Positions 3,893-55,476 of a stretch of 64,000 nt of DNA are shown here, in pieces. Source of the stretch: Nitratiruptor sp. (GTDB taxonomy: Bacteria > Campylobacterota > Campylobacteria > Campylobacterales > Nitratiruptoraceae); contig PUXW01000013.1 of assembly GCA_009659925.1 (NCBI GenBank), forward strand, positions 1 through 64,000, read 5' to 3'. The position numbers were made by a program, and so were the translations under genes. Below the pieces are notes generated by a model. It made no database searches, was not told the origin of the DNA, and saw nothing but the letters and a program-made list of their open reading frames with translations. Each line of letters starts with the position of its first letter. Position 1 is the stretch's first letter.

Positions 3893-5379
3893 TATTGAGC
3901 CTCCGTGACGAGTTGGTGGACCCGATTGCGAACGAGTTTGCCCATGCGTCGATCGTAGCCGTAAATATCGTTGAAGAAGTAGCACTTTCCATCTGGATCG
4001 GCGTAGGCCGTCAAATAGGCCAGATAAACCGGTATCTTCCGTTTGAAGGGGACCCTTTTGGTCCTCTTCGACCAAATTATATCAAAGATATCCCTATAAG
4101 TTAATTTCTTTTCTTTAGATTTGAGCAAATAATAGAGCTCGATGGGACGTTCTACCCGGATACACCCCGAACTTAAGGCCCGATAGGGGTATTTGAAGAG
4201 AGTGCGATGGTTGGTATCGTGGAGGTAGACATCGAAGCGATTGGGGAAGATCAACTTCAAATAGCCCAGGAAGTTGTGGGGCCCTGGCTTTTGAAGGAAG
4301 TAGAAGGGGAGCTCTTCAGCCGAGGTATAAAGGCTCCAATCCACGTCCTCAAAGGGAATCTGATTACGGCCCCGATAGTCGGTGGCGGCAATGATCCCCT
4401 TGCGCTCAAGCTCTTTGAAATTCCCCTCTTGCAAGAGGGGAAGGATATCCTCCTCAATGATGGTCTTGGGAGCCCGCCAGTAGGGGTTGAGAACGGCATA
4501 GGAGATCTCATGGCGCATCATTGGTGTTGGTCGCTTCTTGCGCCCGACGATGACTTTGGAGTGGAAGGTAGAGCGATTTCCTTCATAGACCTCTAGGAAG
4601 AAGCCTGGAATATTGACAAAGACAAAGTAGGGGTCGTCCTGGAGGAACCAACGGAGTCGCTCGATGTTGATGAGGATCTTCTCGATCTTCTCCTCGGGAC
4701 TCATATTCATCGCCTTAAGAGTAGCTGGCCCGATGATTCCATCCGGTTTGAGGCCGTGGCGCCTTTGAAATTCGACGACGGCTTGACGCAGCTCCTGGTC
4801 ATAGGTTTGATTTTCATCAATTGGACCATCGTAAAACCCTTCGATACGGAGCCGCTCCTTGATGGCTGGAATTTCTGGATAGGCGCGCTCTGGATAGAGG
4901 TAGGCGGTATCGTTGACCTCGATTCGGGGCCACCCCCCCATGATGGCAATGCGCTGATAGCCCTCCAAGGCCCTCTCCAGGTTGGAGATGATCGGGTTTG
5001 CAATAGGATATCGTGGCTTTTCCCCCTGGACGGGATAGAACTCCTCCTCGGTGAAAAAACGGTCGGGGCTGCTACAGCCCCCATTTCTCAATTTGGCATA
5101 CTCCTCAAAGAGCTTCTGGGCGAGGCGCTCCACATCCTCCTTATTGGAGTCTATGGGGACCTTTTCCATCGCCTCGATGGCAAGACGAAGGGGAGTGGTG
5201 TCGAGACGCTGGATACAGGTCAAGGTCATGTCATGTTCGACGGCCTCGACGAGCTCCAAGAGCTCCTTGGTTGGACTATCCCCTTGAACCCAGCGATACT
5301 TGGGCTCGGGAGAGGAGAATTCAACTTGTGCCAAGAGCAAGAGGGTAAAGCTCCAGACAATTGGGATGACTCTCTTCAC
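3892..5379 (-). CDS. ldtD: YcbB/LdtD-like L,D-transpeptidase with peptidoglycan-binding domain
   Basis: Periplasmic cross-linking enzyme that forms meso-DAP to meso-DAP (3-3) bonds in peptidoglycan. A signal-anchor (VIPIVWSFTLLLLAQ) opens it. A PG-binding-1 domain lies near 175-230 (KERLRIEGFYDG ... FQRRHGLKPDGIIGPATL). The YkuD catalytic domain holds HDTN, then SSGCIRVERP with the nucleophilic Cys at about 406. At about 495 residues it is in the size range of E. coli YcbB, shorter at the N-terminus. Two GTG starts compete. The one at 5379 has AAGGTGG five bases upstream, whereas the GTG at 5388 lies inside that ribosome site, so 5379 is preferred. mepK follows with a one-base overlap. Confidence 0.88.
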   Translation of the reverse strand: MKRVIPIVWSFTLLLLAQVEFSSPEPKYRWVQGDSPTKELLELVEAVEHDMTLTCIQRLDTTPLRLAIEAMEKVPIDSNKEDVERLAQKLFEEYAKLRNGGCSSPDRFFTEEEFYPVQGEKPRYPIANPIISNLERALEGYQRIAIMGGWPRIEVNDTAYLYPERAYPEIPAIKERLRIEGFYDGPIDENQTYDQELRQAVVEFQRRHGLKPDGIIGPATLKAMNMSPEEKIEKILINIERLRWFLQDDPYFVFVNIPGFFLEVYEGNRSTFHSKVIVGRKKRPTPMMRHEISYAVLNPYWRAPKTIIEEDILPLLQEGNFKELERKGIIAATDYRGRNQIPFEDVDWSLYTSAEELPFYFLQKPGPHNFLGYLKLIFPNRFDVYLHDTNHRTLFKYPYRALSSGCIRVERPIELYYLLKSKEKKLTYRDIFDIIWSKRTKRVPFKRKIPVYLAYLTAYADPDGKCYFFNDIYGYDRRMGKLVRNRVHQLVTEAQ

Positions 5380-34950: not shown

Positions 34951-34970
34951 AGCACCCCTTTTTTTAAGGG

Positions 34971-34976
34971 ATTGTA
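34971..34976 (-). promoter_or_regulatory. -10 box of trmA
   Basis: TACAAT on the minus strand, 20 bases before the trmA ATG, preceded by GTGC. AT-rich on both sides. A start near 34964 would leave a leader of about 14 bases that includes the AGGGG ribosome site. Confidence 0.45.
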
Positions 34977-34987
34977 GCACTTTTTTG

Positions 34988-34993
34988 GATAAT
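34988..34993 (+). promoter_or_regulatory. -10 box of glmU operon
   Basis: GATAAT (with overlapping TAATAT at 34990-34995), preceded by TTTTTTG. This is 34 bases before the glmU ATG and opens the glmU-to-truA run. Confidence 0.5.
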
Positions 34994-35027
34994 ATTACAC
35001 AGCAAAAGCCAGATGGAAAGGTCTCCC

Positions 35028-49688: not shown

Positions 49689-50827
49689 GACCAATCCTCC
49701 AGATATTCGATTGTACCATAAATCTCCTCCCCTCGATAGAGTCCCTCCCCTTGGTGGAGGGAGCGTGGATCGAAGAGGAGGTAGGGACCAGGCGCTTCTG
49801 GGGCGATGGTGCCCCGCTCCAATCCGATGAGCTTGGCCGGGGTGGCACTGGCAAGCTGGAGGAGGCGCTCCATCGAGATATGCCCTGGAAGCACCAATTT
49901 CGTATAGGCTAGGGGGAGATAGGAGGCGATGGAGTCGATCCCATAGGCCGCTTCGTCAAAGCTCAAATCCTTACGGGTGTAGGATGCAGGGGTATGCAAG
50001 GCGGTGAGGAGGTCGACCTTCCCAGCGCCCAGGGCTTCCAAGAGGGCTTCCTGCTCCTCCTGGTCGCGCAGAGGGGGGTCCAGCTTGGCTAGAGTATTGT
50101 AACCCAGGGCAGCTCGGTCGCTCTTGAGGAGGTGGTGGATGGAAAGCTGGGCGAAGCAGTGGGGGGATTGGGCGATGAGCTCGAGGCTGCGGGCGGTGGA
50201 GATTCCCCCGATGATCACCGGTACCCCGTAGTAGTCGCCATACTCGACGATTCTCGCCACCTCCCCGTATTCGTCTACCTTGCTGCGCCCGCGAAGTCCC
50301 AACTGGAAAGCGACCTCCCCCTCGTTCATAACCCCCCTTCTTCGAGAGCCATCGATCCAAACGAATAGGGGGAGCTGGAGCATCTGGGCATACTGGAAGA
50401 TGGGAGCCAGGAGGCTCGAATCGGTCCGGCTCTCCACGAAGATCGCCCGGGCCCCCAGCTTAGCCAGAGTAGCGATCTCGCTCAAGCCCCCCTCCCCCCG
50501 AGTGGCAAGGATGGCAGGATAAAGCTCTACCTGGACATGGGTACTCTTGATGAACTCCAGGTGGATCTCGTCGTTGAGGGGAGGAGAGAGGTCGGGGCGC
50601 AAGAGAATGGTTCCCACCCCTCCCTGACGCGCTTTACGGGCAAGTTCTCGGAGACTCCTTTGACTCAAACGTCCATCCAGCACCCCGACCCCCAAATCGA
50701 CCAAAGGGGGGAGGAGCCAGGGCCCTTCGTGGTCCTGGGGGATGGAATCGAGGAGGGAGAGCTTGCCCTTGGAAAGAGCTATCCCACGACGCCCCGTTGC
50801 GTCGATGGCAAGGGCTCTAAAGTCCAC
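49673..50827 (-). CDS. Dihydroorotase-like protein lacking the catalytic His pair (PyrC'-type)
   Basis: A 384-residue protein with the amidohydrolase/dihydroorotase fold: a short N-terminal beta-sandwich part, LPPLVDLGVGVLDGRLSQ near 39-56, FVWIDG, GVPVIIGGISTARSLELI and a C-terminal LYRGEEIYGTIEY. The metal motif normally read as D-x-H-x-H is D44-L-G-V-G48 here, so both His are Gly. The late T-D-H-A-P motif reads T-A-L-H-T-P, losing the catalytic Asp. It should therefore be inactive. Non-catalytic PyrC' chains in other bacteria support aspartate transcarbamoylase; pyrB is not in the window. GTG start overlaps the thioredoxin-like gene by 11 bases. Confidence 0.82.
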   Translation of the reverse strand: MDFRALAIDATGRRGIALSKGKLSLLDSIPQDHEGPWLLPPLVDLGVGVLDGRLSQRSLRELARKARQGGVGTILLRPDLSPPLNDEIHLEFIKSTHVQVELYPAILATRGEGGLSEIATLAKLGARAIFVESRTDSSLLAPIFQYAQMLQLPLFVWIDGSRRRGVMNEGEVAFQLGLRGRSKVDEYGEVARIVEYGDYYGVPVIIGGISTARSLELIAQSPHCFAQLSIHHLLKSDRAALGYNTLAKLDPPLRDQEEQEALLEALGAGKVDLLTALHTPASYTRKDLSFDEAAYGIDSIASYLPLAYTKLVLPGHISMERLLQLASATPAKLIGLERGTIAPEAPGPYLLFDPRSLHQGEGLYRGEEIYGTIEYLEDWSWETS

Positions 50828-51203
50828 TTTTGATCTCCTCGAGCTTCTTCAAGAAGATTTTGGCCGGAGCCGCTCCCACGAGACCGCGGCCAATAGGGCT
50901 TCCATCGCTCCTGAGAAAATAGAAAGTCGGGGTTCCATAGACCCGATAGCCCAAAGCCTTGGCCTCCTGGATGGTGAGCTGGATAGGGATGAAGTTGTAC
51001 TCGATGAAATCCACCAAAGCCTCCTCCTCGAAGGCTACATCTTCCATGTAGTCACAAGCGCTACACCCCTCCTGGGTGATCATGAGGAGAATCGGCTTAT
51101 TGTCTGCCTTAGCCTGGGCCAACCCCTCCTGGTAGCCATACCACTCGAAGTCGGCCCCTACAAGCCAGAGGCTCAAGAGCCAGAGGATGAACATCGCTTT
51201 CAT
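50817..51203 (-). CDS. Exported thioredoxin-fold protein
   Basis: A 128-residue protein with signal segment MFILWLLSLWLVGADFEW and a thioredoxin fold. The redox motif CSAC is at residues 47-50 in ITQEGCSAC, and the cis-Pro loop YGTPTFYFLRSDG is near 91-103. The GLAQAKADNKPILL opening and the buried-acid pattern resemble SoxW and the DsbD C-terminal domain. It directly follows dsbD with a four-base overlap, so it is probably the periplasmic protein that DsbD reduces, passing electrons to cytochrome c maturation or to other oxidised thiols (inference). Confidence 0.85.
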   Translation of the reverse strand: MKAMFILWLLSLWLVGADFEWYGYQEGLAQAKADNKPILLMITQEGCSACDYMEDVAFEEEALVDFIEYNFIPIQLTIQEAKALGYRVYGTPTFYFLRSDGSPIGRGLVGAAPAKIFLKKLEEIKSGL

Positions 51204-52960
51204 CGTACCACCCTTTCCAACCGTTTCAAGAACTCCTCGGCCTCGATGAAGCCGATGATCCGGTCCACCTCCTTCCCATTCACGAAGATCAAAATCGCCG
51301 GAGGGCCGAAGAGGTTGAACCGCCTCAAGAGCTCTTTGTCCTCCTTGGAGTTATCGCTCACATCAAAGCGCAAGGGGATGAAATGCTCCTGGAGGAAGCG
51401 GCGTACCCGGGGATTGGAGAAGGTGAGGGCGTCGAGCTCTTTGCAACTGGTACACCATTGGGCGGTCACATCGAGGAGGACAGGTTTTTGGGCACTGGAG
51501 AGAATCTCTTCCAATTTGGCCAGGGAGTTAACGGGCTGGAAGAGTCTTTCCTCTTGAGAGCGCTCCTGGGCGCTTCCTACCCCCCGTAAGGGATCAAGGG
51601 GGCTCAATCCCCCAGTGAAAGCCCCGAGGAGGACGAAGAGTCCATAGAGGAAGAGGATAATTCCGACACTCTTCTTGAAATAGGCGAACCACGGGGCTTC
51701 CTGGGGCAGCGGTTCCAGGGCTCGAAGGTAGACGGCGCTGCCTATGAAGAGGGAGCCCCAGAGGAACATGGTGACCCCTGGTGGGAGGATCCGCTCCAAC
51801 ATCCAGATGGCCACCCCGAGCATCACAACCCCGAAGACCCGGTTGATGGCCTCCATCCACCCCCCTGGTTTGGGCATGAATTTCCCAGCTCCTGTTCCAA
51901 TGAGCAAGAGGGGCGTTCCCATCCCAAGACTCATGGCGAAGAGGGCACTTCCCCCCAAAAGGGCATCCCCAGTTTGGCCGATGTAGATGAGGGCCCCGGC
52001 CAAGGGCGGCGCGACACAAGGACCTACAATGAGCGCTGAGAGCAGCCCCATGAGAGCTACTCCGATAATCCCTCCACGGCTACCGGCCGCATCGCTCTTT
52101 TGAGCCAATTTGGTCTGTAAGGAGGCGGGGAGTCCGATCTCGTAAAATCCAAACATACTCAAGGCCAAGGCGACGAAGAGAAGGGCGAAGAGGGTAATGA
52201 CCACGGGATTCTGGAAGGCTGCCTGGAGGTTGGCGCCAAAGAGCCCGGCCAAGAGGCCGGCGATGGTATAGGTGATGGCCATCGCCAGGACATAGACCAG
52301 GGAGTAGAGGAAGGCCCTTTTGGTTGTCATCCCCTTGGATCCAACGATGAGGGAGGAGAGGATGGGGATCATGGGGAAGATACACGGGGTAAAGGCCAGG
52401 AGCAATCCCAACAGGTAGAAAGTCCCCAAAATTGCCCAAATACTCCGATGTTTCAACAAATCGACGATCTCCCCCTCCTCCGATCCCAAACCTTGGCTTT
52501 GAGGTGGCTCTTGTCCCTGGGAGGCCTGCTCTAGCTCCTTGGGAAGGGCAATAGTAAAGCGGTGGCGCTGGGGTGGGTAGCAGACTCCAATTTCGTTGCA
52601 TCCCTGGTAGGAGAGCTCCAATTCGACAGAGGGTTGGGAGGTATCCAGAGCCTCCAGGGGGATAGTAGCCTCCAGAGAACCTTGATAGATCGGCTCTCCG
52701 TGGAGCTCTTGAGGAGGGGGGAGTTGGAGGGGAAGCTCCCGCTGGCTCGGGGCGATTTGGCGGAGTTTGAGCTCCTTCTGGTAGAGGTAGACCTTGGGGG
52801 CCATCTCGATCCGCAGGCGGATTCTATCTCCTTCTAACTGGAGTGAAGGTTTGTAAGCCTCCTCAACGGGAGTGATTTGAGGCCCCTCCTTCCCAACCTC
52901 GACGAAACCGAAACCGAAGAGGAAGGTGACGAGGATGATCCAGATGAGACTGTGGCGCAT
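51200..52960 (-). CDS. dsbD: Thiol:disulfide interchange protein DsbD
   Basis: Carries electrons from cytoplasmic thioredoxin to the periplasm. The 586-residue product has all three modules. The N-terminal periplasmic domain has Cys121 and Cys127 in YQGCNEIGVCYPP. Eight helices include membrane Cys193 in AFTPCIFPMIPI and Cys315 in IVGPCVAPPL. The C-terminal thioredoxin domain has Cys503-Cys506 in AQWCTSCKELDALTF. A signal segment (LIWIILVTFLFGFGF) opens it. GGGAG precedes ATG 52960. First gene of the minus-strand run that continues to the zinc-ribbon gene; a 20-bp perfect palindrome lies just upstream. Confidence 0.95.
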   Translation of the reverse strand: MRHSLIWIILVTFLFGFGFVEVGKEGPQITPVEEAYKPSLQLEGDRIRLRIEMAPKVYLYQKELKLRQIAPSQRELPLQLPPPQELHGEPIYQGSLEATIPLEALDTSQPSVELELSYQGCNEIGVCYPPQRHRFTIALPKELEQASQGQEPPQSQGLGSEEGEIVDLLKHRSIWAILGTFYLLGLLLAFTPCIFPMIPILSSLIVGSKGMTTKRAFLYSLVYVLAMAITYTIAGLLAGLFGANLQAAFQNPVVITLFALLFVALALSMFGFYEIGLPASLQTKLAQKSDAAGSRGGIIGVALMGLLSALIVGPCVAPPLAGALIYIGQTGDALLGGSALFAMSLGMGTPLLLIGTGAGKFMPKPGGWMEAINRVFGVVMLGVAIWMLERILPPGVTMFLWGSLFIGSAVYLRALEPLPQEAPWFAYFKKSVGIILFLYGLFVLLGAFTGGLSPLDPLRGVGSAQERSQEERLFQPVNSLAKLEEILSSAQKPVLLDVTAQWCTSCKELDALTFSNPRVRRFLQEHFIPLRFDVSDNSKEDKELLRRFNLFGPPAILIFVNGKEVDRIIGFIEAEEFLKRLERVVR

Positions 52961-52992: not shown

Positions 52993-53012
52993 TTGGTTAC
53001 AATTGTAACCAA
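52993..53012. promoter_or_regulatory. Perfect 20-bp palindrome in the dsbD/yyaL-like divergent promoter
   Basis: Half-site TTGGTTACAA followed directly by its exact reverse complement, with no spacer. TACAAT, a fair -10 box, is present on both strands within it (52998-53003 on +). Starts would fall about 33 bases before each ATG. It may be an operator, a symmetric divergent promoter, or both. Confidence 0.6.
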
Positions 53013-53042
53013 ATTGGGTAAAACTTGACCAAAGAGGGAGTC

Positions 53043-54962
53043 ATGGCGAATCGACTGCAATGGGCCCAGTCCCCCTATCTCCAGCAGCACAAGGAGCAGC
53101 CTATCGACTGGTACGAGTGGGGTCAGGAGGCCTTCCAGAGAGCCGAGAGGGAGGGGAAACTCATCTTCTTGTCCATCGGCTATAGTAGCTGCCACTGGTG
53201 CCATGTGATGGCCCGGGAGGTCTTCGAGAACGAAGAGGTGGCCCGCCTCCTCAACGACCACTTCATCTCCATCAAGGTGGATCGGGAGGAACGCCCCGAC
53301 ATCGACCACTACTTCCAAGAGGTCTACCGCCTCTTGAACCAGCGCCCAGGGGGATGGCCCCTCTCCATCTTCATGACTCCCCAGGGGCACCCCTTCTTCG
53401 CCGCCACCTACATCCCCCTTCAACCCCGCTTCAATATGCCCGGTTTCATCCAGCTTCTACGCAACATCATCGAGGTCTACCAAGAAGACCCGAACCAAAT
53501 CCACCAGCAAGCCAAGGAGGTCATGAGATTCATGCAACCAAGCAGCAAAAGGGAGCAGGTTGCCTTCGATCCTTCCATCGCCCAAACCTTCGTCGCCAAG
53601 ACCAAAGCCCTCTTCGATCCCGTCCACGGCGGTTTTGGCTCCAAGCCCAAGTTCCCCCAAACCTCGACCATCAACACCCTTTTAACCATCTACCGCCTTA
53701 CCAAGAATCGGGATGCCTTGGAGATGGCGACCAAGACCTTGCGCGAGATGGCCAAAGGGGGGTTGCGGGACCTGGTGGATGGGGGATTTTGCCGCTATAG
53801 TACCGATGAGCGCTGGTTGGTCCCCCACTTTGAGAAGATGACCTATGACAACGCCCTCCTCATGGAGAGTTACCTCTTGGCCTTCCACACCACCCAAGAG
53901 CCGCTCTTCAAGGAGATCGCCTTTGAGATCGCCGACTTCATGGTGGAGTACATGAGCCACAAGGGGCTTTTTTTCAGTGCCAGCGACGCCGACAGCCAGG
54001 GGGAGGAGGGGGGCTACTTCACTTACACCTTCGACGAGGTCGTTGCCAAGCTCCAAGCCGACGGCCTGAGTTCTGAGGAGATCCAAGAGGTCCTCCAACG
54101 GCTCAACATAACCCCCGAGGGCAACTTTGCAGGGAAAAACATCGTCCGGGTCGAGGATCTCGAACTCTGCCAATCCCAGCGGCGAGGCCTTGCCAGCTTA
54201 CGGGAGTTACGCCAAGAGCGGTGCTACCCCTTCATCGATCGCAAGATCATCACCAGCTGGAACGCGATGATGATCAAGAGTTTGTACATGGCGGCACGCA
54301 TTGAGAACCGCTACTTTGAGGTGGCGGAAGAGTCGATGGACTCCCTCTTGAAGACGATGCTCGTCGACGACCATCTCTACCACTCCACCATTATCGGTGA
54401 AAAGCCCAAGATCAAAGGCTTCCTCGAAGATTACGCCTACCTTGCCATCGCTCTGCTTGAGGGCTACAAAACCACCCTTAACGAGGAGTATCTCGCCCGG
54501 GCCAATCTCCTGGTCAACGACGCCCTCGTCGAATTCTACGACCAGGGGAAGTGGTATTTCAGCAAGGGGGAGCTCTTCGTGGAAGCGGAACATACCGACA
54601 CCACCTATCCCAGCAGTGCAGCGGTCATGGTAGAGGGGATGCTCACCCTCGCCGCCCTGGTCCACCAACGCTACTTCACCTTCGCCCAACAGACCATCGA
54701 CTACTATGGCCCCGCCATCATGAGCCATCTTCCATGGAGTGGCCGCTTCGTCACCGCCATCTTGCGCACCTTTTACGAAGATCGGATCATCAAGTCGACT
54801 CCGGCCAATCTCGCCCCCTGCACCCCCCGTATCGACTCCCTCATCTACCCCTTCATCCTCCTCAAAGAGGAGGAGCATGAAGAGCTGGTACTTTGCGACT
54901 GGAATCGCTGTTTTGCTACGGCCCGGGAGTGTAGGGAGATTCTAGGAGCTATCGATGGCTAA
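53043..54962 (+). CDS. YyaL/DUF255 thioredoxin-domain protein
   Basis: A 639-residue cytosolic protein. The N-terminal thioredoxin-like DUF255 domain opens NRLQWAQSPYLQQHKEQPID and contains the redox motif CHWC at 50-53 (YSSCHWCHVMAREVF). GGWPLSIFMTPQGHPFFAAT is near 104-123. The rest is an alpha/alpha barrel of the six-hairpin glycosidase type with GGFCRYSTDERWLVPHFEKM near 245-264 and DADSQGEEGGYFTYT near 310. Human SPATA20 belongs to the family; function is not known. GGGAG precedes ATG 53043. It runs divergently from dsbD and overlaps msrA by eight bases, which suggests thiol repair (inference). Confidence 0.88.
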   Translation: MANRLQWAQSPYLQQHKEQPIDWYEWGQEAFQRAEREGKLIFLSIGYSSCHWCHVMAREVFENEEVARLLNDHFISIKVDREERPDIDHYFQEVYRLLNQRPGGWPLSIFMTPQGHPFFAATYIPLQPRFNMPGFIQLLRNIIEVYQEDPNQIHQQAKEVMRFMQPSSKREQVAFDPSIAQTFVAKTKALFDPVHGGFGSKPKFPQTSTINTLLTIYRLTKNRDALEMATKTLREMAKGGLRDLVDGGFCRYSTDERWLVPHFEKMTYDNALLMESYLLAFHTTQEPLFKEIAFEIADFMVEYMSHKGLFFSASDADSQGEEGGYFTYTFDEVVAKLQADGLSSEEIQEVLQRLNITPEGNFAGKNIVRVEDLELCQSQRRGLASLRELRQERCYPFIDRKIITSWNAMMIKSLYMAARIENRYFEVAEESMDSLLKTMLVDDHLYHSTIIGEKPKIKGFLEDYAYLAIALLEGYKTTLNEEYLARANLLVNDALVEFYDQGKWYFSKGELFVEAEHTDTTYPSSAAVMVEGMLTLAALVHQRYFTFAQQTIDYYGPAIMSHLPWSGRFVTAILRTFYEDRIIKSTPANLAPCTPRIDSLIYPFILLKEEEHEELVLCDWNRCFATARECREILGAIDG

Positions 54963-55476
54963 AGCTCTCTTTGGAGGGGGGTGTTTCTGGTGTCTCGAAG
55001 CGGCCTTCAGGCGGATTCGGGGCGTTCAGGAGGTTACCAGCGGCTATGCAGGGTGCCAAGAGCCAAATCCAACCTATGAGCGGGTTTGCACAGGCGAGAC
55101 CGGATGTGCCGAAGCAGTCCTCATCGAATACGATCCGCAAACCATCAGCTACCAGGAGCTCTTAACCCTCTTCTTCGCCCTCCACGATCCAACCCAACTC
55201 AACCGCCAAGGGGCCGATATCGGAACCCAGTACCGCTCCGTCATCTTCCCCCTTAACCCGCAGCAGGAGCAAATTGCCAAGGCCTTCATCGAGAGCCTCC
55301 AACCCCACTTCAACGGCCAAATCGTCACCACTATCGAAGAACCGGGTCCCTTCTATCCCGCCGAAGCCTACCACCAGAACTACTACGAGCGCCATCCGGA
55401 CCAACCCTACTGCCAGTTGGTCATCGCCCCCAAACTTGCCAAACTAGCCACCAATTTCCAGGAGTATCTGCGATGA
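54955..55476 (+). CDS. msrA: Peptide methionine-S-sulfoxide reductase
   Basis: Repairs oxidised methionine (S-epimer). The 173-residue product starts ALFGGGCFWCLEAAFRRIRG with catalytic Cys10. EVTSGYAGC is near 26-34, YERVCTGETGCAEAVLIEYD near 41-60, and the substrate pocket motif HDPTQLNRQGADIGTQYRS near 76-94. Possible resolving Cys sit at 34, 45 and 50. There is no signal peptide, so it is cytosolic. Placed after the CHWC protein and divergent from dsbD, it is part of a redox-repair neighbourhood. Confidence 0.95.
   Translation: MAKALFGGGCFWCLEAAFRRIRGVQEVTSGYAGCQEPNPTYERVCTGETGCAEAVLIEYDPQTISYQELLTLFFALHDPTQLNRQGADIGTQYRSVIFPLNPQQEQIAKAFIESLQPHFNGQIVTTIEEPGPFYPAEAYHQNYYERHPDQPYCQLVIAPKLAKLATNFQEYLR

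Follow-up and report, generated by a model that had tools for sequence, protein, structure and literature searches.

We analysed a 64,000-nucleotide stretch of a Nitratiruptor sp. genome, hereafter the window, in which two gene sets related to thiol repair face away from each other across an 82-bp intergenic gap. On the minus strand, dsbD begins with an ATG at 52960 and, together with the small thioredoxin-like gene that overlaps its end, probably forms one operon. On the plus strand, yyaL begins with an ATG at 53043 and is followed by msrA. Among named sequences, YyaL is closest to proteins from Nitratiruptor and from Campylobacterota MAGs, at no more than 68% identity. The gap holds a palindrome, TTGGTTACAATTGTAACCAA, and the features of the locus are as follows.

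50817-51203, minus strand: small thioredoxin-like protein, overlapping the end of dsbD (Pfam, ORF table)
51200-52960, minus strand: dsbD, thiol:disulfide interchange protein with DsbD_N, DsbD_TM and a C-terminal thioredoxin domain (Pfam)
52993-53012, both strands alike: perfect 20-bp palindrome TTGGTTACAATTGTAACCAA, core of the proposed bidirectional promoter
52994, minus strand: predicted dsbD transcription start, placed by symmetry, with a leader of about 34 nt
52996-53003, plus strand: extended -10 box GTTACAAT for yyaL-msrA, matching gnTAnaAT
53002-53009, minus strand: extended -10 box GTTACAAT for dsbD, matching gnTAnaAT, its position conserved in relatives
53011, plus strand: predicted yyaL-msrA transcription start, the first A of CCAA, placed by its spacing from the -10 box, with a leader of about 32 nt
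53043-54962, plus strand: yyaL/DUF255 (Thioredox_DsbH), the CHWC protein of an earlier note on this DNA (Pfam)
54955-55476, plus strand: msrA, peptide methionine sulfoxide reductase, overlapping the end of yyaL (Pfam PMSR)

The sequence, position and perfect symmetry of the palindrome, as described in the earlier note, were all confirmed; it equals its own reverse complement. The TACAAT reported there on both strands is likewise present, at 52998-53003 on the plus strand and 53007-53002 on the minus strand. The palindrome is single-copy in the genome of 1,440,596 bases when up to three mismatches are allowed, and is also the sole match in the 64-kb window. It had been called very unlikely by chance, which applies to its position in the gap and not to its mere existence. 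At 56% GC, composition alone predicts about 0.07 perfect 20-bp palindromes in 64 kb and about 1.6 in a genome of 1.44 Mb, so that the existence of this one is less remarkable than was held. The expectation for such a palindrome within an 82-bp gap is about 0.0001, and its position, unlike its existence, is unexplained by chance. In the 664 kb of host genome examined (46% of the genome), three of the six palindromes with arms of at least 10 bases were found in divergent promoter gaps; together these gaps span 7,044 of 664,434 bases, or about 1% of this sequence. The window also contains a second, longer palindrome, the perfect 22-bp TTCCCCTCTTGCAAGAGGGGAA at 4421-4442, which lies within a called gene.

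Promoter statistics were gathered from the same host stretches, with genes called by a simple codon-usage script, by which individual start codons may be misplaced. In the first 341 kb, the most enriched hexamers 5' of genes were TATAAT, the ribosome-binding AAGGAG and TACAAT. Upstream of genes, TATAAT was observed 27 times against 2.2 expected and TACAAT 18 times against 1.6; over 664 kb the corresponding counts were 57 against 5.5 and 42 against 3.9. Among the sense copies of both hexamers in the 341 kb, 40 of 45 have their last base 20-49 nt ahead of the start codon; for the two TACAAT boxes in the palindrome the distances are 39 (yyaL) and 41 nt (dsbD). Start-site maps of Campylobacter jejuni and Helicobacter pylori define the sigma-70 box as gnTAnaAT (PMC3847290). 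In C. jejuni this motif, which has no accompanying -35 box, lies 4-8 nt before the start and precedes 95.6% of start sites (PMC3847290). The extended box GTTACAAT fits gnTAnaAT exactly on both strands and, by this consensus and the host statistics together, both copies qualify as boxes of the housekeeping sigma factor.

We therefore consider it highly probable that TTGGTTACAATTGTAACCAA is a compact bidirectional sigma-70 promoter composed of two extended -10 boxes placed head to head. The two TACAAT boxes overlap by 2 bp at an offset of +4 and have their central AT in common. RNA polymerase would load in either direction, transcribing dsbD and the thioredoxin-like gene leftward from about 52994 or yyaL-msrA rightward from about 53011. 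The predicted spacing between the opposite starts is 15 bp, or 17 bp if the first A is used. That both boxes are used, that transcription begins at these positions and that the two polymerases exclude each other is what we infer from this arrangement. The flanks of the boxes may also be accounted for. Host promoters serving a single gene carry T in 83% and 51% of cases at the two positions 5-6 bases before the -10 box, and are C-rich and then A-rich 10-16 bases past the first base of the box (A-rich from +12 to +16). The T/G-rich stretch 5' of one -10 box would thus be complementary to the C/A-rich region in which the other promoter starts. The flanks mirror each other because, at an offset of +4, the TT(GG) of one promoter opposes the (CC)AA of its partner; a near-perfect palindrome would therefore follow unaided from two good promoters in this geometry. 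Points against a shared promoter include that the -10 boxes alone do not need a perfect match between the outer TTGG and CCAA, and that a weak TAAAAC at 53019-53024 could still serve yyaL.

Head-to-head -10 boxes were observed repeatedly elsewhere in the host. Overlapping pairs are present in 30 of the 60 divergent gaps in 664 kb, compared with a mean of 10.9 and a maximum of 18 in dinucleotide-shuffled gaps, a control that is too generous on its own as shuffling also destroys single -10 boxes. None was found in the 16 convergent gaps of the same sequence. Pairs at +4 that share the central AT number 16 in the divergent gaps, against 2.5 in shuffles. Because shuffling removes single boxes too, one-sided promoters were added as a second control. 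In the host, a +4 partner accompanies 13 of the 61 boxes in divergent promoters and 1 of the 31 in one-sided ones (p = 0.03, for one of several offsets tested). The preference was not replicated in the sister genomes G004 (1/38 versus 1/16) and G010 (6/56 versus 3/39), and pooling the three genomes gives 20/155 versus 5/86 (p = 0.12). A general preference of divergent pairs for +4 was consequently dropped as a claim, owing to this lack of replication. Head-to-head recurrence is clear, while the preference for the +4 geometry is only suggestive. It appears rather unlikely that evolution in this lineage has come to favour +4 promoters of full mirror symmetry, in which two complete -10 boxes share the AT and the starts lie 15-17 bp apart. 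If it had, the geometry would fall outside the commonest 10-, 18- and 23-bp classes, and at dsbD/yyaL the box for yyaL would have shifted onto that for dsbD.

Individual cases illustrate the recurrence; the gene names given here were read by eye from translations. In the host, mirror-image -10 pairs were identified at 157342 of contig C1 (GGGTTACAATTATATCC), in a secA/lolA-like gap at 69771 of contig C3 (TACAATTGTA) and in a ubiD-like/sufB gap at 42101 of contig C3 (TACAATTATA). On the same contig as the window but outside it, a perfect 24-bp palindrome, AATTATAGCAAATTTGCTATAATT, lies between the divergent recR and dnaJ (C1, 108972-108995) and carries an outward-facing TATAAT on both strands. 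Where proC and a bamD-like gene diverge (C10, 4225-4246), TTATGTTAAAATTTTAACATAA forms a perfect 22-bp palindrome with TAAAAT boxes in the +4 geometry. These other pairs resemble TTGGTTACAATTGTAACCAA in their -10 boxes but do not carry its half-site. Of the 11 near-matches in sister genomes (TTTGTTACAATTGTAACAAA and variants), at least 8 are flanked by unrelated genes that start in opposite directions, with uvrB and thiL among the neighbours, and one sister genome has TTGGTATAATTATACCAA in a divergent gap. These unrelated housekeeping neighbours favour a general promoter and not a regulon.

The same divergent dsbD/yyaL pair was compared in 16 gaps of the Nitratiruptor family. The dsbD-directed box is kept in 14 of them, as ATTTTAAC or ATTGTAAC on the plus strand, corresponding to GTTAAAAT or GTTACAAT. 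The right arm of the palindrome is thus the conserved one, whereas the left arm varies. Strict conservation of the whole palindrome was not found among relatives. Most low-GC relatives within the genus have a TATNAT for yyaL about 19 bp further to the right, and the host carries at this ancestral place GGGTAAAACTT, with the weak TAAAAC that lacks the key T. The ancestral yyaL box has been lost as well in G004, the other GC-rich species, where a plus-strand TAAAAT lies near the dsbD box (TTTTGGTAAAATCTATTGTAACC). Most likely, a box overlapping that of dsbD took the place of the original yyaL box.

Of the two readings put forward in the earlier note, the symmetric promoter is borne out by the host -10 statistics, the recurrence of head-to-head boxes and the published consensus, while the operator for a dimeric regulator is not. 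In the latter, a redox-sensing dimer would bind both half-sites and repress the two operons together. In favour of this, the two-fold symmetry is perfect and the site separates two operons for thiol repair, and dimeric helix-turn-helix regulators have sites of a form like GTTAC-N4-GTAAC; we regard this resemblance as a lead only. However, TTGGTTACAATTGTAACCAA is the sole such site in the genome even with three mismatches. The genome scan for the half-site pair, which had been proposed as a check, revealed no regulon: with one mismatch allowed in GTTAC-N4-GTAAC, only one other match has the AATT spacer, and it is itself a divergent promoter with a -10 pair, while the remaining relaxed matches look coding and have unrelated spacers. 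No regulator gene adjoins the locus, and relatives with the dsbD/yyaL pair keep only the arm with the dsbD -10 box, which disfavours a conserved operator. Judged from the sequences compared, the operator reading would fail on two counts, multiple sites in a regulon and conservation of both arms. The lack of a second site in the genome led us to reject an operator that governs a regulon, and the operator reading as a whole is improbable.

It is likewise improbable that only the dsbD box is used and that yyaL is driven from the ancestral TAAAAC, the symmetry of the plus-strand box being incidental. The conserved arm is indeed the dsbD arm, and the TATNAT of most low-GC sister species sits at just that place. 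Nevertheless, TAAAAC has no T at the key position -7, and a start from it would give yyaL a leader of only about 12 nt, while the plus-strand TACAAT fits gnTAnaAT fully and, at 39 nt from the yyaL ATG, is spaced as usual. We give next to no probability to a palindrome that arose by chance and serves no purpose other than that of ordinary DNA. Composition alone would yield about 1.6 of this length in the genome, and others were found inside genes; yet the consensus promoter boxes are correctly spaced from both genes, and divergent promoters are where palindromes accumulate.

The shared promoter is most likely a bidirectional promoter of a known type with unusually perfect symmetry. Warman, Forrest, Grainger and colleagues describe prokaryotic bidirectional promoters in which opposite-strand -10 elements are shared or overlap; the commonest start spacings are 18, 10 and 23 bp, with small variations allowed (PMC12825309, PMC10268837). 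The dsbD/yyaL element resembles these in being short, in its overlapping opposite-strand -10 boxes, in its divergent mRNAs and in the steric exclusion to be expected. It differs in that the boxes overlap by 2 bp with a predicted start spacing of 15-17 bp, and in that its symmetry is perfect over 20 bp where theirs is partial. Basal activity of the E. coli bidirectional promoters is too low for competition, which appears once one direction is activated (PMC12825309). By analogy, two weak promoters may merely be co-located here, with exclusion between polymerases a sterically plausible consequence. Compared with Campylobacterota sigma-70 promoters, which have no -35 box (PMC3847290), GTTACAAT is a full match with a T-rich upstream stretch, but here two opposed copies have bases in common. 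With palindromic operators between divergent genes, the element has in common its two-fold symmetry, its intergenic position and its overlap with both -10 boxes; unlike them, it has no second genomic site, one of its arms is unconserved and no regulator adjoins it. Among the results listed, our literature search yielded no direct precedent for bidirectional promoters in Campylobacter or for promoters in Nitratiruptor.

Even a perfect palindrome as striking as this one, set between divergent genes, may be explicable by promoter symmetry alone, with no regulator involved. The locus also offers a comparative case in which two boxes that are separate in relatives appear merged into one shared element. 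If the start spacing of 15-17 bp is true, it would add a further geometry to the described classes of bidirectional promoters.

A different conserved element was observed in the dsbD/yyaL gap of many Sulfurovum genomes (e.g. at loci L072, L078, L087 and L103). These gaps contain a strongly conserved block, approximately TATTGTACTATTTGTGTATAAGCTGTGTAATA, with a direct repeat of TGTGTA spaced by about 11 bp, as might suit a response-regulator site; the block is present in one to two copies per genome with up to three mismatches. In the window, the divergent trmA-like/glmU gap at 34951-35027 contains GCTGTGTAATATTATCCAAAAA, which is close to the Sulfurovum dsbD/yyaL block GCTGTGTAATATTACCAAAAA.
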